From an uncultured Halomicronema sp. (GTDB taxonomy: Bacteria > Cyanobacteriota > Cyanobacteriia > Phormidesmidales > Phormidesmidaceae): DNA of 10,911 nucleotides. Shown here one piece after another: positions 2,301-10,911 of the stretch (position 1 is the stretch's first letter; every line of letters begins with the position of its first letter). Location of the stretch: positions 1-10,911 of the forward strand of contig CALCPB010000310.1 in assembly GCA_937897665.1 (NCBI GenBank), written 5' to 3'. The position numbers were made by a program, and so were the translations under genes. A model generated the notes under the pieces. It made no database searches. It was given only the letters and a program-made list of their open reading frames with translations, and was not told the origin of the DNA.

Positions 2301-2360
2301 GCCTAGCCGCATGGAGAAGTCAGGACTTGCGGCATTGAGTGTTTGGGCGTTGGCATCTTT

Positions 2361-3011
2361 ATGACCCTAGAGCTGGATCATGTGTTTATCTTGGTGGAGC
2401 CAGAGGCCCCGGTGGCCGATTTGCTGCTGGCCCACGGTTTCAAGGAAGGCACCGGTAATCGACACCCGGGGCAGGGCACAGCCAACCGGCGCTTTTACTT
2501 TGCCAATGGCATGCTGGAGTTTTTGTGGGTACATGATGCGGCAGAGGCCATGAATGGCCCCGGACGAGAATTGCGCTTTGCCGATCGCACCCAATCCTCC
2601 ACCGCGTCGCCGTTTGGGGTGATTTTGCTCAGCCCAGACGCCAACAATCTAGAGATGCCCTTCCCCGGCTGGACTTACCAACCCGACTATTTTGCGCCGC
2701 CCAACGCCTTTCATGTGGGAGCCAACTCCAGTGATTTGGCCCAACCGCTCTGCTTCTGTGCGCCCTTTATCAAGCCGCGAGCCGCCAGATCTAAATCTGC
2801 AGACACGAATGCTCAAGTCATGACTCAGGTGCGTATTCATACACCCGCCCGCGATCGCTCAGGGGTTCTCAAAGTCGTCAATCAAGTGGACCGACTTGTC
2901 GTTGAGTCGGGGCACGAGCATCTGATGGAAATTACTTTAGACGGCAATGAATTGGACTGTCGTGTAGACTTTCGCCCAGACCTGCCACTGATCATTCACG
3001 GATTGTCGTAA
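2361..3011 (+). CDS. VOC/glyoxalase-like domain protein
   Basis: This 216-residue protein belongs by pattern to the vicinal-oxygen-chelate (glyoxalase/dioxygenase) superfamily. It opens with the typical LDHVFI strand (H7 is a candidate metal ligand), then HGFKEG, then NRHPGQGTANRRFYF, then the GMLEFLWV strand (E53 is a candidate second ligand). This order is that of the Glyoxalase_3-like branch. The second half is less conserved and ends in a strand-rich segment. VOC enzymes act on small molecules, often thiol adducts or catechols; the substrate here cannot be told. The ATG at 2361 is chosen because MTLELDHVF is where the family normally begins; a TTG at 2343 would add six residues. It starts 60 bp after the zinc-ribbon gene on the same strand, so co-transcription is possible. 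It converges on the minus-strand operon, with 56 bp between the two stops. Confidence 0.85.
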   Translation: MTLELDHVFILVEPEAPVADLLLAHGFKEGTGNRHPGQGTANRRFYFANGMLEFLWVHDAAEAMNGPGRELRFADRTQSSTASPFGVILLSPDANNLEMPFPGWTYQPDYFAPPNAFHVGANSSDLAQPLCFCAPFIKPRAARSKSADTNAQVMTQVRIHTPARDRSGVLKVVNQVDRLVVESGHEHLMEITLDGNELDCRVDFRPDLPLIIHGLS

Positions 3012-3067: not shown

Positions 3068-4078
3068 TCATCGCAATCGCAAGGGCTCGGGAGATTGACT
3101 CTGGAGTCGGGTTTCACAGAGCGTCAGAAGTGCCTCAGTATAGGGGCGGCGAGCGGCAATGCGAGTGCTGATGTGGATATGGCGCACCAACGTGAGCACC
3201 GTGTAAAGCTCAATTGTCCACCGGAGCCGATCGGCTTGCTCCCCGGCTCTGGTCTCAATAAACGCGTCTCGAAGGGCGGCTTCTTGTGCAACCATCGCTG
3301 CCGGATCCGCTAACTGCCGCAGGCTCTGTTCGGTGATGTGGGCGATGAAGTTGCCAATGTCGAGGGCCGGATCGCCCTGGCAGCAGAGGTCGAGATCCAC
3401 CAGCCAGAGGCGATCGCCCTCTACCAGTACCTGATCAGCGTAAAAGTCGCGGTGGATCAGGGTAGGCGGCAGCGGCGCGGCGAGTAAACCGGCCGGTCGG
3501 CTCTGCGTCAGGAGGTCGCAGGTCTTGAGGATGTGAGTGAGACGCGCCTGCCATTGGGGATGCTGCTGGGCGACCAGCGGCAGCCGTTCGTGGAGGATGC
3601 GCAGTTCGTCGGCGAGGGTGTGGGTTTTGGCTGTGGAAATCGGGATTTGGTGCAGCTTATCGGCCAGGGCCGCGATGCGGCAGGCCAGGGGCCCGCCCGC
3701 CGGGGTCGGTAGCAGCTGAGTAGCGGGCACGCCAGGCACCTTGCGCTGGAGCCACATGTGCCAGTGGGGAATCACGCCCAGCGGTTCTGGGATGGAGTAG
3801 CCATCTGGGCTATCGGCGGCAAAGCCCTGGTGCCACAGCGCTTGCTGGAGCTGGTAACTGGTCAAGTCGAGGCCTTTAACGCGCAGTTTGCCCAGCAGGA
3901 CGAGGGGACCAGTGGCGGTGTCAAGATGGTACTCAATTAGAGCGCGGCGACCCGGCTTATAACGCACTAAGGTCGCCTTGGTGACCTGGCGCAAGGTGGG
4001 GAGCACGGTCTGAATTTGAGTGTAGGCCTGCGGCAAATCGAGCGCGGCGGCTAAAAGTTGAGACGTCATTGGGGTCAT
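3068..4078 (-). CDS. APH-fold phosphotransferase, last gene of the operon
   Basis: This is an aminoglycoside-phosphotransferase/choline-kinase-fold enzyme of 336 residues, expected to move the gamma-phosphate of ATP to a hydroxyl of a small molecule. Evidence is the N-lobe strand LLGKLRVKG (candidate ATP lysine), the catalytic loop HRDFYADQ at 209-216, the metal-binding DLDL at 228-231, and GDPALDIGNF just after it, in the order seen in the family. The usual HxDxxxxN reads HxDxxxxQ here, so glutamine replaces the metal-binding asparagine; I recall related sequences with this change. Given the glycosyltransferases and exporter upstream, a sugar, glycolipid head or other glycan precursor is a more likely target than an antibiotic. 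ATG 4078 is chosen; an in-frame GTG at 4087 adds three residues. The gene starts 14 bp after the exporter stop. Confidence 0.85.
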   Translation of the reverse strand: MTPMTSQLLAAALDLPQAYTQIQTVLPTLRQVTKATLVRYKPGRRALIEYHLDTATGPLVLLGKLRVKGLDLTSYQLQQALWHQGFAADSPDGYSIPEPLGVIPHWHMWLQRKVPGVPATQLLPTPAGGPLACRIAALADKLHQIPISTAKTHTLADELRILHERLPLVAQQHPQWQARLTHILKTCDLLTQSRPAGLLAAPLPPTLIHRDFYADQVLVEGDRLWLVDLDLCCQGDPALDIGNFIAHITEQSLRQLADPAAMVAQEAALRDAFIETRAGEQADRLRWTIELYTVLTLVRHIHISTRIAARRPYTEALLTLCETRLQSQSPEPLRLR

Positions 4079-4092
4079 AAATCTCACTGGGG

Positions 4093-5925
4093 TTAAGCGA
4101 TCGGAGCCACCTCATCCCGGAGGGCTGATTGCATCCGATAGAGGGTGGCGTAGGCGCCATGGCGGCCCATGAGTTCAGCGTGGGTGCCTTGCTCTAGCAC
4201 CTGTCCCTGCTCTAGATACAGGATCTGATCAGCAGGGGTGGCCAAATGCAGGTCATGGGTAATCAGAAAGGTGGTGCGGTTTTGGCTGAGCTGCCGCAAC
4301 GCCTCGGCGACTGCCTGTTCATTGGCGTTATCGAGGCCGGTAGTGGGCTCATCTAAGAGCAAAATCGGCGTTTGGCGAAGGGCAGCACGGGCGATCGCGA
4401 TGCGCTGCCGCTGCCCTCCCGATAGGGTCGCCCCGCGTTCGCCGACCACCGTGTCATACCCTTGCGGCAAAGCGGTGATGAACCCGTGGGCATTGGCCAA
4501 TCGGGCGGCCGCCTCAATCTCGGTATTGCTAGCTCCGGCGACGCCGTAGGCGATGTTTTCTCGCAGGGTGGCGGCAAACAGCAGGCTGTCTTGCAACACC
4601 ACGCTGATTTGGGGGCGCAGACTGTCTAGGGTGTAGTCGCGGATGTCATGACCATCGATCAGCACCCGGCCAGCGGTCGGGTCATAAAGGCGCATCATCA
4701 GGCTCATCAGGGTAGACTTGCCGCTGCCGGAGGGACCAACCACTGCGATCTGCTGTCCAGGCTGCGCCGAGAGGGTAATGCCCTGCAGCACCGCCTGGTG
4801 GGGCTCATAGGCAAAGTGCAAGTTTTCTAATTGCACAGCCCCACGGAAGATTGGGGCGGGGCGAGCCTGGGGGCGATCGCAGACCTCTGGTTGTTGCTCC
4901 AACACATTGAGGATGCGCTCTCCAGAAGCGGCGGCTTTGGCCAAGCGTCCGGTGTATTTGGCAAAGTTTTGCACGGGCTTAAAGGCATTCTTCAAGTAGG
5001 TTAAAAACACCAGCACATCGCCGGGTGAGAGGGCATCTTGAATCACCAGTCGTGCCCCGTACCACAACACCAACGCCGTGCCCAAAGCAATGATGACGTC
5101 GACGGTGCGTTCCAGGTGAACGGCTAAGCGTTTGGTCTCCACACTTTTCTCTAGGCTCTGATGATTTTGCTGGGCAAAGACGTGGGCAAAGGCCTTTTCT
5201 AAAGACAGCGCTTGCACCAGCTTGATCGCCGCCAGCGATTCTGCGGCGGTCGCCGCCACGGCACCTTCCTGTTGCCGCTGCTGTAATGAGACCCAGCGAA
5301 TCCGATTGCTGAGGCGGGTGGCGACCAGCCAAAATAGCGGAAACGTCACGAGGGAAAGGAGGGTCAGCTTCAGATCGATCCAAGCCATGACGACTACCAT
5401 CCCGGCCAAGGTCAAGAGACTGACCAGCAACGGTAAGGCCGCCGTCAGCAAAATCTCTTGCAAGCGACTGGCATCGCTGCTGACTCGCACGATCAGGTCA
5501 CCACTGCGGGCCTGACTGTGGTACCGCAGAGACAACCTTTGCAGATGCTGATACAGCCGGTTGCGCACCTGGGTCATGACCCGGCTGCCCACGATCGCCA
5601 GGCTGACCGTGCTCCAATAGGCGGTGATCGCCCGCAGGCCCGCCATGGCCACGACACTGATCGCCGCCGCTGTCAGCAGCATGACCGGATCTAGGGTGGC
5701 CAGCCCCGACAGCCCATGGGGGTCACCACTCCGGGCGGGAATCAACACTTCATCGAAGATAATCTTCAGCGGCCAGGGCTCTAGCACCCGCAAGCCCACA
5801 TCGGCCAGGAGGGCGATGCCGGAGATCATCAGCAGGGGCCACTGGGGGCAGAGGCAGGGCCAAAAAGTCCCCATAACCCGCCACCATCCCGGCACAGTCG
5901 GCGGTAGAGAGGGTAATCGGTTCAT
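4093..5925 (-). CDS. Type I ABC exporter half-transporter (MsbA/lipid-flippase-like)
   Basis: This is a 610-residue fusion of a six-helix membrane domain and an ATPase, the build of MsbA/McjD/PglK-type homodimeric exporters and flippases. Hydrophobic segments lie at about 30-48, 80-104, 159-182, 187-205, 275-295 and 302-311. The nucleotide-binding domain is complete: Walker A GPSGSGKST (397-405), Q-loop glutamine 445, signature LSGGQ (501-505), Walker B ILLLDE (521-526) and H-loop histidine 557. No peptidase or extra N-terminal domain is present. The ATG at 5925 is preferred, because a longer frame reaching 6108 would overlap the upstream glycosyltransferase by more than 150 bp with non-family sequence. 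It starts 11 bp after that gene's stop. Three glycosyltransferases upstream make a glycolipid, oligosaccharide or glycosylated metabolite the likely cargo, which is inference from context. Confidence 0.95.
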   Translation of the reverse strand: MNRLPSLPPTVPGWWRVMGTFWPCLCPQWPLLMISGIALLADVGLRVLEPWPLKIIFDEVLIPARSGDPHGLSGLATLDPVMLLTAAAISVVAMAGLRAITAYWSTVSLAIVGSRVMTQVRNRLYQHLQRLSLRYHSQARSGDLIVRVSSDASRLQEILLTAALPLLVSLLTLAGMVVVMAWIDLKLTLLSLVTFPLFWLVATRLSNRIRWVSLQQRQQEGAVAATAAESLAAIKLVQALSLEKAFAHVFAQQNHQSLEKSVETKRLAVHLERTVDVIIALGTALVLWYGARLVIQDALSPGDVLVFLTYLKNAFKPVQNFAKYTGRLAKAAASGERILNVLEQQPEVCDRPQARPAPIFRGAVQLENLHFAYEPHQAVLQGITLSAQPGQQIAVVGPSGSGKSTLMSLMMRLYDPTAGRVLIDGHDIRDYTLDSLRPQISVVLQDSLLFAATLRENIAYGVAGASNTEIEAAARLANAHGFITALPQGYDTVVGERGATLSGGQRQRIAIARAALRQTPILLLDEPTTGLDNANEQAVAEALRQLSQNRTTFLITHDLHLATPADQILYLEQGQVLEQGTHAELMGRHGAYATLYRMQSALRDEVAPIA

Positions 5926-5936
5926 CGTTAGCAGTC

Positions 5937-7142
5937 TCAGTGGAGTATGGGGAGACCCGGTGCGGTGGATGATAACGGCTGCGGCGACCGTTCGTGGCGT
6001 TGAGCGATCGCTAGCACGCGTGCCGCCACGGCATCCCAGGTATGGTGGGCTAAAACGTGTCGTCGCGCGGCTTGCCCGAGCTGCTGTTGCAGTTGAGGTG
6101 ATTCCCACAATCGCTCCAGCGCCGTCGCCAAGGCAGGCTCATCGCCCGGCGGGCAGAGCAATCCGGTGTCCCCATCAGCGATCAAATCAAGTAGTTGCCC
6201 CCGACCGCTCACGACCACCGGCAGCCCAGCCGCCATATACTCCACAACCTTGAGCGGCGAAAAATAGAAGTCAGTACTGGCGGGGTAGGGCGCCACGGCC
6301 ACATCCATCGCCGCTAGCAGATCCGGAATTTGCTCCGGCGAGACGGCTCCGGTCAGGGTGGTCACGGCTTGCAGCCCCCGCCGCTGCAGATCAGCGACCA
6401 GGTCTGCTCGCTGGGGGCCATCCCCCACGATCAGCAACCGGGCCTGGGGTACCCGGTTATAGAGTTGGGCAAAGGCGGCGACTAAATGGGCCAGCCCATG
6501 CCAGGGTTTGAGAGAGCCGACAAAGCCCACGGTGAAGGTCTGGGCAGCTTGGGCGATGGCCGGCTGCAGGGTAGCCGGAAAGCGATGATGATTGACGCCG
6601 TTAGGAATGACATGGACCTTGTCGGCGACCCCCCAGAGCGATAAGGCGAACTTGACTTCTTGGGACACAGCAATGAGACCACTGGCGGCCTGAAAGGCCC
6701 AGGTGGCCACCTGCTCAGCTTGCTCTCGGTGCACGAGTTGCCGATGCTGGGCCTGTTCTTCGATGAGGGGAGCATTCACTTCTAGTAGACCGGGAATGCC
6801 CTGGTGCTGAGCCCACTCCATCGCGCTGTAGCTCCAGAGAGAATAGCGTTCGTAGACTAGATCAAAGGGGCCGCTGAGCTTGAGGGTGGCCCGCAAGTTG
6901 GGATTGCTCGCGAGGGCTAGCTCTTCTCGCAGCGCCGGTTCGCCCTTCGTGATGGGCGGCAGCGCATGCACCGTCAGATCTGCCAGATCCGCCGGGGGAG
7001 ACCCGCCTAGACGCACGGCAAACAAGTCGACGGTGGCACCGTGATGCCGCAAGGCCCGAATGACCTCCTGCACATGGATCGAACAGCCTTTTTGCCCAAA
7101 CACGGGGATGCCCGGATCGGCACAGACATAAGCAATGCGCAT
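5937..7142 (-). CDS. GT4-type glycosyltransferase (third in operon)
   Basis: This retaining GT-B glycosyltransferase of 401 residues would transfer a sugar from an activated donor to a cytoplasmic or membrane-surface acceptor. The N-terminal Rossmann domain opens MRIAYVCADPGIPVFGQKGC with SIHVQEVIRAL (the K-G-x-x-x-H loop common in GT4). The hinge region has IPNGV (179-183), the second domain begins GFVGSLKPWHG (206-216), and the donor-binding motif FSPLKVVEYMAAG (294-306) places the conserved glutamate at 301. No membrane segment or signal peptide is present. A strong ribosome site (GGAGGTG) overlapping the upstream stop codon supports the ATG at 7142, and only 3 bp separate the two reading frames. 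Sugar and acceptor are not predictable. Confidence 0.93.
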   Translation of the reverse strand: MRIAYVCADPGIPVFGQKGCSIHVQEVIRALRHHGATVDLFAVRLGGSPPADLADLTVHALPPITKGEPALREELALASNPNLRATLKLSGPFDLVYERYSLWSYSAMEWAQHQGIPGLLEVNAPLIEEQAQHRQLVHREQAEQVATWAFQAASGLIAVSQEVKFALSLWGVADKVHVIPNGVNHHRFPATLQPAIAQAAQTFTVGFVGSLKPWHGLAHLVAAFAQLYNRVPQARLLIVGDGPQRADLVADLQRRGLQAVTTLTGAVSPEQIPDLLAAMDVAVAPYPASTDFYFSPLKVVEYMAAGLPVVVSGRGQLLDLIADGDTGLLCPPGDEPALATALERLWESPQLQQQLGQAARRHVLAHHTWDAVAARVLAIAQRHERSPQPLSSTAPGLPILH

Positions 7143-7145
7143 GGA

Positions 7146-8408
7146 TTACACCTCCTGGAGTTGGGGCACTACTGCGGGGCGCGATTGGAAACAAGACCGC
7201 AAGACCGCTGTATTGCGCACAATGTCAAACTCGGTTTCGATCAGCGATCGCGCCTGGGTAGCCAGGGTTTCTCTCAGCTCGGGCTGGCTCAGTAGTCGCT
7301 CCAGCGCTGTGGCTAAGCCCTGAACATCCTGTTGCGCCACCTGTAACCCAGTGACACCATCGCGGATGATTTCGGGAATGCCCGTGACGTCAGTGGCGAC
7401 GCAGGGGGTCCCCAGAGCCATGGCTTCTAGCAGGGTGGTGGGCAGGCCATCACGATTGCCGTCCTGGCCAATCACATAGGGGGCCGCAAAGACCGCAGCC
7501 TGCTGCATCAGGTCAAAGACTTCTCCTTGGGGGCGCGGGCCGACAATCTCCACCCAGTCATCTAAATTTAGGGCCGTGATCTGCGATCGCAAAGCCGCCT
7601 CCAGCGGCCCGGTGCCCACAATTTGACAGGTAAACTCACAGTGCCACTGCTGCAGCTGCGCACAGGCCTCAATCAACACCGATAGCCCCTTTTTCTCAAC
7701 CAAGCGACACACCGACACAATGCGCGGGCACCGCCGGATGGGTGACTGATAGTGCAGCTCCTGCAGATTCATGCCGTTATAGATGCGCTGCATTGTGCGC
7801 GTATCGGCTCCAAACTGCTGCTGTAGGTAAGCCACGTTGTAGTCGCTGACCGTGATCACCGTTGCCGCATCCCGCAGCTTGCGCCGCAAATCGGCGGGCT
7901 CCACACTCTCATGAAAAATGTCTTTAGCGTGGGCGGTAAAGCTGTAAGGCATATCCGTGAAGTGCGCCGCCAAGCGAGCGACATTGGTCGCTACAGTGCC
8001 AAAGTGAGCGTGCAGATGGGTAATGCCATGCTGCCGAATCGCTTGAGCCAGCCAGGCCGCCTGATACACTACGCTGGCCCGCTCGCCGACGGCATAGTCC
8101 AGCTTTGACCAAATGTCGGGAATGACCTTAGCGGCCTCCTGCAGCTCAGCCCAAAAATAGCTGGCAGCAGTCGGCCTGAGGCTCGTGAGTGAAGGATTAA
8201 CCCGCCCTGCAGTCGGCTTTTTCACATAAGTGACCGGTGCCCTCACCTGGGCAATTTTGTCCTGGAAGTGAGTGTCTGCCGGAGGACGCAAAGCAAAGAT
8301 ATGGACGTTCAGCCCGGCCGCTTCATGGGCCAAGATTTCATTCACGATGAAGGTTTCGGAATAGCGAGGATAGCGTTTGACGACGTAAGCAATGGTGGGA
8401 GAAGTCAT
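7146..8408 (-). CDS. GT4-type glycosyltransferase (second in operon)
   Basis: This is a 420-residue GT-B enzyme of the exopolysaccharide/colanic-acid type. The start IAYVVKRYPRYSETFIVNEI is the hallmark of the WcaL/AmsK-like branch, which has YP-x-x-SETF near the N-terminus. HAHFG follows at 133-137 with SFTAHAKDIF shortly after. The second domain has VCRLVEKKG, and the donor motif GLPTTLLEAMALG carries glutamate 328. ATG 8408 is chosen because it overlaps the upstream stop as ATGA (complement of 8405-8408), a classic translational-coupling junction, and because the family starts there; the TTG at 8432 would add only eight unconserved residues. The neighbouring glycosyltransferases suggest successive additions to one glycan. 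Confidence 0.93.
   Translation of the reverse strand: MTSPTIAYVVKRYPRYSETFIVNEILAHEAAGLNVHIFALRPPADTHFQDKIAQVRAPVTYVKKPTAGRVNPSLTSLRPTAASYFWAELQEAAKVIPDIWSKLDYAVGERASVVYQAAWLAQAIRQHGITHLHAHFGTVATNVARLAAHFTDMPYSFTAHAKDIFHESVEPADLRRKLRDAATVITVSDYNVAYLQQQFGADTRTMQRIYNGMNLQELHYQSPIRRCPRIVSVCRLVEKKGLSVLIEACAQLQQWHCEFTCQIVGTGPLEAALRSQITALNLDDWVEIVGPRPQGEVFDLMQQAAVFAAPYVIGQDGNRDGLPTTLLEAMALGTPCVATDVTGIPEIIRDGVTGLQVAQQDVQGLATALERLLSQPELRETLATQARSLIETEFDIVRNTAVLRSCFQSRPAVVPQLQEV
7149..7155 (-). promoter_or_regulatory. Strong Shine-Dalgarno for the 5937-7142 glycosyltransferase
   Basis: The minus strand reads GGAGGTG here, inside the last codons of the upstream glycosyltransferase, six bases before the ATG at 7142. 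It is the only strong ribosome site I see in the operon; the neighbouring genes seem to rely on overlap or close spacing. It suggests this enzyme is independently and efficiently translated. Confidence 0.6.
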
Positions 8409-9817
8409 GGGCAGCAAGGTAGCAGGGGACAAGAGGGCGGGATCGCTGGGCCGGGGGCAGGCAGCAACCGGCCGATGGGTTCACGCTGCAGGGCGGTCTT
8501 CAATAACTGTTTCAACTCCACCAGCAGGTTGTCTAAGCCGCTGAGATTCACTGCGAGCTGAGTCGCATCAAGCGCGACAGACTGGCGCAGCCAAGTACTC
8601 ACGGTCTCAGCGCTGAGCTGGGCGGGGTGCAAGATGTCTACCAAGCCCAGCTGCTGTAGCCGTTCGGCCCGAATCCACTGTTCTTGTCGAGGTGTGACGC
8701 GGGGCACAATCAGCGCCGGTTTCTGGAAGGAGAGAATTTCGCAGGTGGTGTTGTAACCGCCCATGGCCACGACCCGGCTAGCCTGTTTGATCAGCAGGGT
8801 CGGTTCCTCGAAGTAATCTAAAATTCGCAGTTGGGGATTGGTCGCTGCCCAACTGTGGAGTTGCTGTTGAATTTCGGGCGGCATGAACGGACCGGTCAAC
8901 AATACCCCAGTCATTTCTGTCGGAAAGGTCGCTTGGGCAAAGGCGGTCGCCAGCGCCACCCCGTCTTGCCCCCCCCACACGAGCCACAACACCAGAGTAT
9001 CATGGGGCAGGTGCAGGGACTCGAGGCAGGAGTGAGCCGTCGCTCGGGTATGGGGCAACCGAGAGCGCTGATCTAAATAGCCTAAGGGGTGCATCTTGGC
9101 GACGATGTCAGCCGGCAGGCCATATTCGGCGCGAATGTCGTAAATAGCTGGATCGCCATAGATCCAAATAGCATCGTAGTAGCGGCGAATGGCGGCTGCG
9201 CTATCGGCCCGCTGCCAGTCACGCTGCACGGCGGCTGGGGTATCCAGCACGTCCCGCAACCCTAAAACACAGTGAATATGGGGCTGCGCTTTGACGTACT
9301 CTAAGGTCGCATCAAGTTCGCGCACTGCCCCACGAGGCACGTTGTCGACAATTAGCACGTCGGGCTGAAAGCTTTTGACGGCAGTGCAGATGAGTTGCGA
9401 TCGCAACTCAATCATTTCTTGCAAAACCAAGCTCAATCGCCGAGACCGATACTGCCCATCGGCCCGTTTATAGAGGGCGGGCAGCGTTAAGTAATCGACG
9501 CCGTCCGGCATGGGGCTGTCGCTGGCATCTCGCATACCGCTGATCATCAAAATATCGGCATTAATATCGGATGATCCTAAAGCTTGGGCAATCAGCAGAT
9601 TACGTCGTTTATGACCCAGTCCCATCGTGTCGTGGGAATACAGCACAATCCGCAAACGTCGTTCTTCAGAAACCACACCGGGGAATAACCGGGGCGATTG
9701 AGATATCGGCCTCAACCCATAGGATTTAACCGCCGCTAATGGGCGGGGGGGCAGCGTCGGCAGCTGTTGGTGAGTTCGATTAAGTGAAAACAAGACCGTT
9801 GCTCCATCACAGCTCAA
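8405..9817 (-). CDS. MurG/COG4671-like glycosyltransferase, first gene of the operon
   Basis: This is a GT-B glycosyltransferase resembling the predicted COG4671 group and, in its C-terminal half, MurG/GT28. The core starts RIVLYSHDTMGLGHKRRN (56-73), with the glycine-rich GLGH loop typical of the fold. Later come GLRDVLDTP, LVWGGQDG (279-286), and the UDP-sugar-type site MGGYNTTCEILSFQKPALIV (352-371) with RQEQW after it. The first 50 or so residues are unconserved and no in-frame ATG exists before the core. Starts available are TTG 9817 (used here, longest), GTG 9676 and TTG 9655; the last would place Met right before RIVLYSHD. The true length is therefore 416-470 residues. A C7 run at 9745-9751 separates an out-of-frame ATG (9807) from this frame. 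The C-terminus ends in a proline/cysteine tail overlapping the next gene. Confidence 0.87.
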   Translation of the reverse strand: MSCDGATVLFSLNRTHQQLPTLPPRPLAAVKSYGLRPISQSPRLFPGVVSEERRLRIVLYSHDTMGLGHKRRNLLIAQALGSSDINADILMISGMRDASDSPMPDGVDYLTLPALYKRADGQYRSRRLSLVLQEMIELRSQLICTAVKSFQPDVLIVDNVPRGAVRELDATLEYVKAQPHIHCVLGLRDVLDTPAAVQRDWQRADSAAAIRRYYDAIWIYGDPAIYDIRAEYGLPADIVAKMHPLGYLDQRSRLPHTRATAHSCLESLHLPHDTLVLWLVWGGQDGVALATAFAQATFPTEMTGVLLTGPFMPPEIQQQLHSWAATNPQLRILDYFEEPTLLIKQASRVVAMGGYNTTCEILSFQKPALIVPRVTPRQEQWIRAERLQQLGLVDILHPAQLSAETVSTWLRQSVALDATQLAVNLSGLDNLLVELKQLLKTALQREPIGRLLPAPGPAIPPSCPLLPCCP

Positions 9818-9886
9818 TAAGTGGATGGATTGACAGCAACCCTGATGGCAACACTTTCCGGTTCAGGACTGTCAACCGATGCCGAC

Positions 9887-9905
9887 CTTAACTATTCGTT
9901 AATAC
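9887..9905 (+). promoter_or_regulatory. PHO-box-like repeat pair A
   Basis: CTTAACTA, 3 nt, then GTTAATAC puts two TTAA cores (9888 and 9899) exactly 11 bp apart. The cyanobacterial PHO box bound by SphR/PhoB is described as 8-bp repeats of the form YTTAAYYW separated by 3 bp. The first repeat fits fully, the second only in its core. It lies about 70 bp upstream of the longest start of the operon. It could be a regulator site or coincidence. Confidence 0.3.
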
Positions 9906-9960
9906 TGAGCAGATCTGCTTTTTCATTAAGGGGGAAAGACAGTCAGTCTCTGCATCACTA

Positions 9961-9981
9961 AGTTAAGAACGGGTTAATTAC
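9961..9981 (-). promoter_or_regulatory. PHO-box-like repeat pair B
   Basis: On the minus strand the sequence reads ATTAACCC, 3 nt, CTTAACTT, with TTAA cores at 9963 and 9974, again 11 bp apart. CTTAACTT fits YTTAAYYW fully; the other misses at both ends. The orientation faces the glycosyltransferase operon, about 150 bp from its longest start. Confidence 0.35.
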
Positions 9982-10293
9982 TAAGGTGCCAAGCCTCCTT
10001 AAAGGCTCAGTGAAAGCCGAGTGAGAAAGTTCTTATATGATGGTTTCTCTGGCTTAATCGCCCCCGGTGACAGGGTGAACTGGATTCATAACCATCACTT
10101 AATCACCGCGATCGCCCGCTGACGACTGACCGTAACTCTTTGCCTTTCATCCGACCCTCGCGAATCCCTCAAAGCTAGAAAAATCGGCGCTTTCAACCTT
10201 TATCTGCCGGGGCTAAATCTCATTGCCTGCCACCCCTGTCCCGATGATGGTGACTCAGTTACCCACCCCTAATCGGAGACAGCCTTAAAGTCA

Positions 10294-10323
10294 CATAATT
10301 CATGCTTAACTTTTTATTAACTT
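10294..10323 (+). promoter_or_regulatory. PHO-box-like triple repeat C
   Basis: CATAATTC, 3 nt, CTTAACTT, 3 nt, ATTAACTT gives three units with 11-bp period. The middle one fits YTTAAYYW fully, the third misses only the first base, and the first is weak. This is the best match to the tandem PHO-box layout in the window. It lies about 480 bp before the VOC gene at 10801, far for a direct operator, so its target is unclear. Confidence 0.4.
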
Positions 10324-10558
10324 AAGGATGGCAATCGAGTTCTCCTCTCAAGGTGGGTATGAGTGTAGGCATGCCCTTTGGAGTCAGGAAGAAAGCTTTT
10401 GCCAGCAAAGCATCGGCTCAGACACTAGTAAAGACAGTTATTACGCTTGCCGATTGAACAGTCATATCCGCTACTGAGAGCAATCCTGCCGCTGATTTTG
10501 GCGTTAGATATCGTCAGGACGTATGTAAGTAGGTAGGCACAAGCATCTTGCAGACGGG

Positions 10559-10625
10559 TTTCGACTCCGCTCAACCCTCAACGTTTGACTTGGCAAGCAA
10601 TATAGCTGATTGAGCGGAGTCGAAA
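10559..10625. repeat. 16-bp perfect inverted repeat with 35-bp spacer
   Basis: TTTCGACTCCGCTCAA (10559-10574) recurs as its exact reverse complement TTGAGCGGAGTCGAAA (10610-10625). I recall GAGCGGAGTCGAA-type inverted repeats as dispersed intergenic elements in many bacteria, including cyanobacteria. The element has no coding content. It could form a long hairpin in a transcript crossing it, and might terminate or process RNA ahead of the VOC gene. Confidence 0.7.
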
Positions 10626-10800
10626 TCAGCGACCGGTTTAACACTTAATTTGACCCAGCTACTTAATGGCATCCGATTTTGTCTCCCTCGCCATCCATTC
10701 CGAAAAAACTGGATGCAACTTCCCGCAGAATTAGGAAATAGCAGAAAACCAGGCAGAAGTCCTAAGATTTTTAGCCGTAGCTACATTTAGCGAGGGTGAT

Positions 10801-10911
10801 ATGACCTTCAGTCGAATTTTGACCAACCTCTGCTCTGACAATCTCGCCGAAAGCCGAGATTTTTATGTCTCGCTGCTGGGATTTGAGGTGAACTATGACA
10901 GCGATTGGTAT
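10801..10911 (+). CDS. VOC/glyoxalase-like protein, 5' part only
   Basis: The first 37 residues of a gene cut by the window end begin MTFSRILTNLCSDNLAESRD and continue FYVSLLGFEV. The pattern of an initial strand, then L-x-x-SRDFY, then LLGFEV is the standard opening of a glyoxalase/bleomycin-resistance (VOC) domain. A ribosome site GAGGG (10792-10796) precedes the ATG at good spacing. Substrate unknown. It is a different VOC subtype from the gene at 2361-3011, since that one lacks the SRDFY-x-x-LLGF helix. Confidence 0.8.
   Translation, partial: MTFSRILTNLCSDNLAESRDFYVSLLGFEVNYDSDWY

Follow-up and report, generated by a model that had tools for sequence, protein, structure and literature searches.

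Exporters of the MsbA, HepA, NdvA and PglK type are half-transporters that combine the Pfam domains PF00664 and PF00005 and stand among glycosyltransferases. For cyanobacteria, a phylum-wide survey of exopolysaccharide export deals with the routes that depend on Wzy, KpsMT or a synthase (PMC4594306), and a study of Halomicronema biofilm examined the three classical routes plus lipopolysaccharide (LPS) export (PMC11765580), as far as the available portions of the two texts extend. Here we describe a set of five genes from an uncultured Halomicronema sp. that brings together three GT-B glycosyltransferases, an ATP-binding cassette (ABC) half-exporter and an APH-fold kinase. It lies at positions 9817..3068, on the minus strand, of a 10,911-nucleotide stretch (CALCPB010000310.1; contig G000:C310:1-10911, hereafter the window) of a 5.2-Mb draft genome that consists of 1047 contigs and is 90.34% complete. 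Glycan assembly and export is a known kind of function; this particular combination of genes was not found described in the open-licence full texts that the literature search covered (subscription papers were excluded), and the same texts yielded no account of COG4671 as a glycosyltransferase.

The reading that we favor, at a probability of about 0.5, is that these genes form the core of a module, inherited together, for the assembly and export of a glycan. Its product, an anionic oligosaccharide or glycoconjugate, would be made in the cytoplasm, phosphorylated, exported by a dimer of the ABC protein and released through a barrel. That the set is a real co-inherited unit, beyond chance, follows from the counts of kinase and GT28 co-occurrence given below.

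Organization of the locus

The five frames run head to tail with zero internal stops in the transcription order GT28/MurG-like glycosyltransferase (8405..9817), GT4a (7146..8408), GT4b (5937..7142), single-chain ABC exporter (4093..5925) and APH-fold kinase K2 (3068..4087), all on the minus strand and all assigned by Pfam. Provided that GT4a begins at ATG 8408, for a length of 420 aa (the listed frame begins at TTG 8432), the first two genes share 4 bp; gaps of 3, 11 and 5 bp follow. With frames free of stops, such junctions fit a single transcript, and the operon proposed by the first-pass annotation of this DNA is borne out. The GT28 frame has 470 aa from its first start codon, TTG at 9817; the true start is uncertain, and alignment with relatives places the beginning of the family-conserved part at about 9650. 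GT4b has 401 aa, the ABC gene most plausibly starts at ATG 5925 (610 aa) rather than at the first start of its frame, 6108, and K2 has 339 aa from GTG. Promoter and terminator scans showed no excess over shuffled sequence (1 found with 3.1 expected, and 7 found with 7.1 expected). When the upstream region, 9818-10911, was compared with relatives, only the window's own copy matched over more than 25 bases; the region has one 69-base inverted match to itself. Halomicronema sp. CCY15110 has the identical gene order, with proteins 67-80% identical to those of the window.

Conservation of the set in cyanobacteria and beyond

The first-pass annotation had named conserved synteny as its own test, and the set passes it strongly. 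Among 292 cyanobacterial genomes, the window's included, K2 occurs in 19 at E<=3e-115, with a weak match only (3.6e-5) in a twentieth, and the GT28 orthologue occurs at E<=1.2e-164 in the identical 19; the counts, like those for other groups below, take no account of relatedness among genomes. Weaker GT28 matches, from 8.8e-144 on, belong to a paralogue group, which is the sole GT28 type in six further cyanobacterial genomes. All five genes stand in one block at 17 of the 18 other cyanobacterial loci read; among these blocks, K2 has moved to the front in L098 and an extra frame lies inside L099. Genome G119 has four of the genes together and GT28 elsewhere on the same 4.1-Mb contig.

A kinase scan of the species-genome collection returned 47 loci, 46 of them with a kinase frame (L056, which has none, was excluded). 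The complete set is found within 9 kb upstream and on the same strand in 33 of the 46, and the gene order is the same in 32 of these 33, the exception being a Nitrospira locus in which the set is reshuffled. Thirteen loci were not counted as complete. The kinase or the first listed gene lies near the start of the stretch in L011, L013, L028, L037, L040, L042, L048, L053 and L055, so that genes may be cut, and L053 has split frames in addition. L043 has a GT28 frame that the overlap filter removed; the same filter hid, in L124, a kinase that the genome search had found. L019 has shortened genes with no GT28 found, and L035 is rearranged, with GT28 on the opposite strand and neither a GT4 nor the ABC gene nearby. 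The thirteenth, L015, contains kinase fragments alone. Mirror-tree correlations are 0.83-0.96, with none of 999 permutations as high; since a common history of the species would suffice to produce such values, they count as weak evidence. The scan loci and the separately sampled loci partly overlap (e.g., L036 with L093).

The set recurs in Gammaproteobacteria, Nitrospira, Planctomycetales and Actinomycetota, on one Paracoccus plasmid and on Escherichia coli plasmids. In Actinomycetota, K2 (E<=1e-20) is present in seven of 198 genomes, all seven of which also have GT28 (E<=1e-30; 10 genomes in all); in Gammaproteobacteria the figures are eight of 321 for K2, again all with GT28 (14 genomes), and three of 199 genomes of the planctomycete phylum have K2. 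Each of these three samples includes its center genome, which was chosen for carrying the set. Among the weaker of these kinases, those of genomes G307, G571 and G858 (1e-25 to 1e-30) are distant. The actinobacterial sets are unlikely to be contamination, since in three genomes they sit on contigs of 2.86, 2.96 and 4.38 Mb. A GT28 relative (E<=1e-30) with no K2 at the thresholds used was seen in G070, G091, G123, G174, G278, G289, G824, G844, G983, G353, G391, G512, G561, G563 and G593, which possibly have kinase-free or divergent-kinase versions. One planctomycete-phylum locus (L134 in G676, 3207-12782) is a variant with a pair of neighboring ABC exporters, a single distant kinase, two GT4 genes and a paralogue-type GT28.

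A search of 5426 complete E. coli genomes found the complete set, with two kinases, a barrel and a dehydrogenase, on plasmids of 18 of them, at 99.3-100% identity, and on no chromosome. Two conjugative plasmids (L058 and L059) carry the complete set with both kinases (see below), an AlgE-type barrel and a nucleotide-sugar dehydrogenase. Of the two E. coli plasmids whose surroundings were read, one has, as annotated, K88-type fimbrial genes near the set and the other a heat-stable enterotoxin gene; these neighbors carry no information on the role of the set.

The five proteins

The GT28 protein scores 31.4 bits with PF04101 (Glyco_tran_28_C; cut-off 22), which makes it a member of the GT28/MurG-like family, and its match to solved MurG is weak (E=0.0012). 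GT4a carries PF00534 and PF13692 and is EpsE/WcaL-like, with 180.2 bits for the EpsE NCBIfam model (cut-off 400); GT4b matches PF13692, PF00534 and PF13439. The ABC protein, of type I (MsbA/P-gp type), has PF00664 and PF00005 with Walker A, LSGGQ, Walker B and the H-loop all present, and it matches solved ABCB proteins, Sav1866 and MsbA. Half-transporters of the MsbA/P-gp type must dimerise; the "complete" exporter of the first-pass annotation thus has its domains and ATPase motifs but is a single half-transporter.

K2 scores 43.0 bits with PF01636 (APH; cut-off 23.2) and has a catalytic HRDFYADQ and a metal-binding DLD, as an APH-fold kinase should. Many APH kinases have Asn where K2 has Gln. 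The HRDF...Q...DxD motif is retained in all 36 separate K2 proteins, so K2 looks active as judged from its sequence. Relatives of the kinase bear generic labels only (phosphotransferase, thiamine kinase-like enzyme, hypothetical protein and alike) among the matches listed, 120 of 1380. The cyanobacterium Trichormus variabilis ATCC 29413 is one of the organisms with a member of this kinase family.

As a defense system, the set was tried and rejected: PADLOC gave zero matches for four of the five proteins, and the eight families that it matched to the ABC protein (best mad3, 122.1 bits) are taken to be generic ATPase matches.

Genes that accompany the set in relatives

A second kinase, K1, occurs as a separate protein or fused to K2. 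Of the 21 non-cyanobacterial loci from the scan or from plasmids, tblastn showed it at 20 and clustering at the last (L041); 11 of the collected proteins are long K1-K2 fusions. K1 is present at only three of the seven sampled gammaproteobacterial loci. In the 19 kinase-bearing cyanobacterial genomes, a K1 search gave strong matches in two, weak cross-matches in 16 and none in one, and in the window's genome its sole match was the window's own kinase. A tree of 64 kinase rows sets K1 apart from K2 and divides cyanobacterial K2 into two supported groups of seven and 20 rows; the proteobacterial, Nitrospira and actinobacterial rows lie nearer the group of 20, with low support at the deep forks.

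Outer-membrane barrels are frequent companions. An AlgE-type barrel is found at 13 of the 21 non-cyanobacterial loci and at six of the seven sampled gammaproteobacterial loci, and one such protein matches solved AlgE at 2e-18. Of the cyanobacterial loci, 13 of the 28 from the scan and 10 of the 18 from the sample have an OprB-type barrel. No barrel was found at six actinobacterial loci. In cyanobacteria, 14 of the 28 scan loci and 10 of the 18 sample loci have a two-component pair (an OmpR-type regulator and a histidine kinase) within the stretch, and such a pair also adjoins the Paracoccus plasmid copy.

Genes that may add charge to a product occur as well. A nucleotide-sugar dehydrogenase adjoins the set in Vibrio, in Sedimenticola and on the E. 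coli plasmids, and the Vibrio and E. coli proteins exceed the general nucleotide-sugar dehydrogenase cut-off; the actinobacterial locus L124 has a gene of this type 7 kb from its kinase. Sulfotransferase genes lie directly downstream of the kinase part at L123 and L124, both from Actinomycetota (at L124 only 4 bp after K1), hinting at sulfated products there.

Proposed function and its rivals

In the module that we favor, the three GT-B transferases would work in the cytoplasm, building on an acceptor a short oligosaccharide that in some lineages probably contains uronic acid. The APH-fold kinase, of which there is one here and often two elsewhere, would phosphorylate a sugar of the chain or the acceptor and so add negative charge, and the ABC half-exporter, judging from its family, would dimerise and move the finished product over the plasma membrane. 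In many diderm relatives the adjacent AlgE-type or OprB-type barrel would then pass the product through the outer membrane, and the two-component system often seen beside the set may be its regulator. In the window's organism a barrel encoded elsewhere would be required, since neither barrel nor regulator adjoins the set. Since the three transferases are of GT-B type and the Pfam scan of the set saw neither a polymerase nor an initiating phosphoglycosyltransferase, the product is more likely to be short than to be a long polymer. AlgE passes a polyanion, and UDP-glucose dehydrogenase produces UDP-glucuronate; because AlgE, UDP-glucose dehydrogenase, the sulfotransferases and the kinases all point to charge, we infer an anionic exported glycan that the kinase phosphorylates. 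Sets are present in Actinomycetota, which are not known to have LPS, so the module is not tied to LPS alone.

Several observations weigh against this interpretation. A close metagenome-assembled genome (L015, 89% identical segment) has only fragments of the kinase and zero partners in the 10 kb upstream. At a position in a glycine-rich loop of GT28, 38 of the 39 proteins collected, paralogues among them, have Gly and the window's protein has Trp, a change that may be neutral or may do damage. The two GT4 enzymes deviate from the EX7E motif across their scorable relatives: in place of the first Glu, GT4a has Asp (32 of 32 scorable among 38 collected, the window's included) and GT4b has Tyr (35 of 35 scorable among 41 collected). 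The two GT4 assignments of the first-pass annotation stand by Pfam, and the EX7-type sites that it cites are not canonical. The OprB-type protein at L036 is modeled as an iron uptake porin and may be a general pore or uptake porin. The Vibrio and E. coli dehydrogenases, nearest to UDP-glucose 6-dehydrogenase, score 534 and 568 bits, below its cut-off of 757. Among the window frames, Pfam identifies no barrel, regulator or dehydrogenase adjoining the set, and these partners are not universal at the loci of relatives either.

The product might instead be a glycolipid or lipid-linked surface component that the ABC protein flips, as MsbA and PglK do, and that stays on the envelope. MurG acts on a lipid-linked acceptor, so the weak MurG likeness of GT28 suits this idea, as do the best NCBIfam matches of the exporter (MsbA_rel, 436.6 bits; MsbA, 417.2; HepA, 375.7; PglK, 170.9). 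These scores are all under the curated cut-offs, however, a pure LPS-type role misfits the actinobacterial loci, neither an initiating transferase nor a ligase was seen in the set, and an outer-membrane barrel is unexpected for a product retained in the membrane. We consider this explanation unlikely, if one to be taken seriously. A secreted small molecule is less probable still. Here the transferases would decorate a scaffold, the kinase would keep it inactive for self-protection, and the ABC protein would carry it out of the cell, which agrees with the APH fold, the multidrug-type exporter, the sporadic distribution and the carriage on plasmids. The window's kinase, however, matches no NCBIfam aminoglycoside-resistance model, the window frames showed no gene for making a scaffold, and the conserved AlgE-type barrels, nucleotide-sugar dehydrogenase and two-component systems suit a glycan better. 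The first-pass annotation let the kinase act on the sugar precursor or on the product, possibly for self-protection; a biosynthetic or decorating step suits it better, since K2 is a co-inherited part of the core and two kinases, often fused, are present at many loci outside cyanobacteria, and self-protection is the less supported part of that claim.

We give little credence to a kinase that acts on a protein or peptide, in regulation or in a lanthipeptide-like modification, while the other four genes make a glycan. The top NCBIfam matches of K2 are LxmK of class V lanthipeptides (38.9 bits, cut-off 315) and then CotS (19.2, cut-off 172.7), and one K1 weakly touches the models of the Ser/Thr kinase PRK11768 and Bud32. 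Against this, all of these scores are far under the cut-offs, and K1 and K2 fall into separate groups, with many loci retaining both, in keeping with two chemical steps.

Extending the favored module beyond the window, we suggest, tentatively and with more doubt than confidence, a further glycan secretion route common to diderms and monoderms, in which three GT-B enzymes and one or two APH kinases would produce a phosphorylated anionic oligosaccharide in the cytoplasm, a half-exporter of the MsbA/P-gp type would move it whole, a lineage-specific barrel (AlgE-type or OprB-type) would serve diderms for release, and charge would come from interchangeable phosphate, glucuronate or sulfate. If true, this would add a route beside the three classical ways of exporting surface or released glycans, assign APH-fold kinases a role in exporting glycans, and account for genes that several phyla carry under generic names (phosphotransferase, glycosyltransferase, ABC transporter). 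The set is common to cyanobacteria from soil and water, to marine bacteria and to E. coli plasmids, so a mutant study would inform many genomes.

A paralogous cluster and the flanks of the set

The same genome has a kinase-free paralogous cluster (system B; L009, G000:C117, 878-13758), in the order two-component pair, GT28, GT4, GT28, GT4, GT2, ABC exporter (split over two frames) and, at the contig end, a histidine-phosphatase-family protein. It resembles the five-gene set in its ABC pieces (50% and 67% identical), GT28 (36%) and GT4a (38%), and it also lies beside a two-component system; it differs in having no kinase on the contig and in having the GT2 enzyme and the histidine-phosphatase-family protein. 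The operon-linked histidine kinase has its best full-length match in the window's own genome beside this cluster (47% identical), with a 49% partial match on C4. At L022 and L024, relatives of the GT28/GT28/ABC part of the cluster stand back to back with the five-gene set.

In the window, the set is flanked on one side by a plus-strand frame with a Glyoxalase_3 domain by Pfam (2343-3011) and on the other by a plus-strand frame start that the contig end cuts off (10801-10911) and that resembles a second glyoxalase-type protein. Farther out, a plus-strand frame at 189-629 has a T6SS_Tdi1_C immunity-protein domain (36.4 bits, cut-off 27.4), and two similar broken remnants on the minus strand (695-844 and 1338-1625), presumably of the DNA-binding end of an AraC-type regulator, flank a frame at 812-1330.

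Comparison with known systems

Two literature candidates were set aside as far as the available portions of their texts go: the twisted-stalk sfz cluster (PMC8250860) has other genes (GT2, BcsB-like) and an MsbA-like exporter merely as a neighbor, and the lipocone paper (PMC12419801) names APH-like kinases in a figure legend with nothing seen there that matches the set. The survey of cyanobacterial exopolysaccharide export has glycan export from cyanobacteria in common with the present case; the routes surveyed are the three classical ones, and the portion of its main text available does not mention MsbA, OprB, HepA or phosphotransferase (PMC4594306).

The first-pass annotation had expected an exported glycan without Wzx or Wzy, and Pfam supports this: Wzx, Wzy and PCP/OPX are absent from the nine window frames, the rest of the genome not having been searched for them. 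The KpsM/KpsT (Wzm/Wzt) pathway needs a separate ABC-2 permease and ATPase, whereas here PF00664 and PF00005 are in a single chain. Alginate secretion is similar in that an AlgE homologue often lies beside the kinases in non-cyanobacterial relatives; it differs in that the present set has no synthase gene and has three GT-B enzymes and an ABC exporter, with no AlgE-type barrel adjacent in the window. The class V lanthipeptide kinase LxmK is not matched by K2 at its cut-off, and no window protein reaches the NCBIfam curated cut-offs for MsbA, HepA, NdvA, ChvA, PglK, EpsE, WcaL or LxmK. For the exporter the scores are 417.2 of 602 bits with the MsbA lipid A exporter, 375.7 of 725 with HepA_fam_ABC (heterocyst polysaccharide), 333.8 of 733 with the NdvA type, 262 of 585.4 with ChvA and 170.9 of 1000 with PglK, in keeping with the first-pass view that the homologues are not those of an assigned pathway, be it lipid A, heterocyst-polysaccharide, cyclic-glucan or PglK export. 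The ABC protein thus shares its domains and its setting among glycosyltransferases with the MsbA/HepA/NdvA/PglK-type exporters, and, unlike theirs, the unit described here includes APH kinases.

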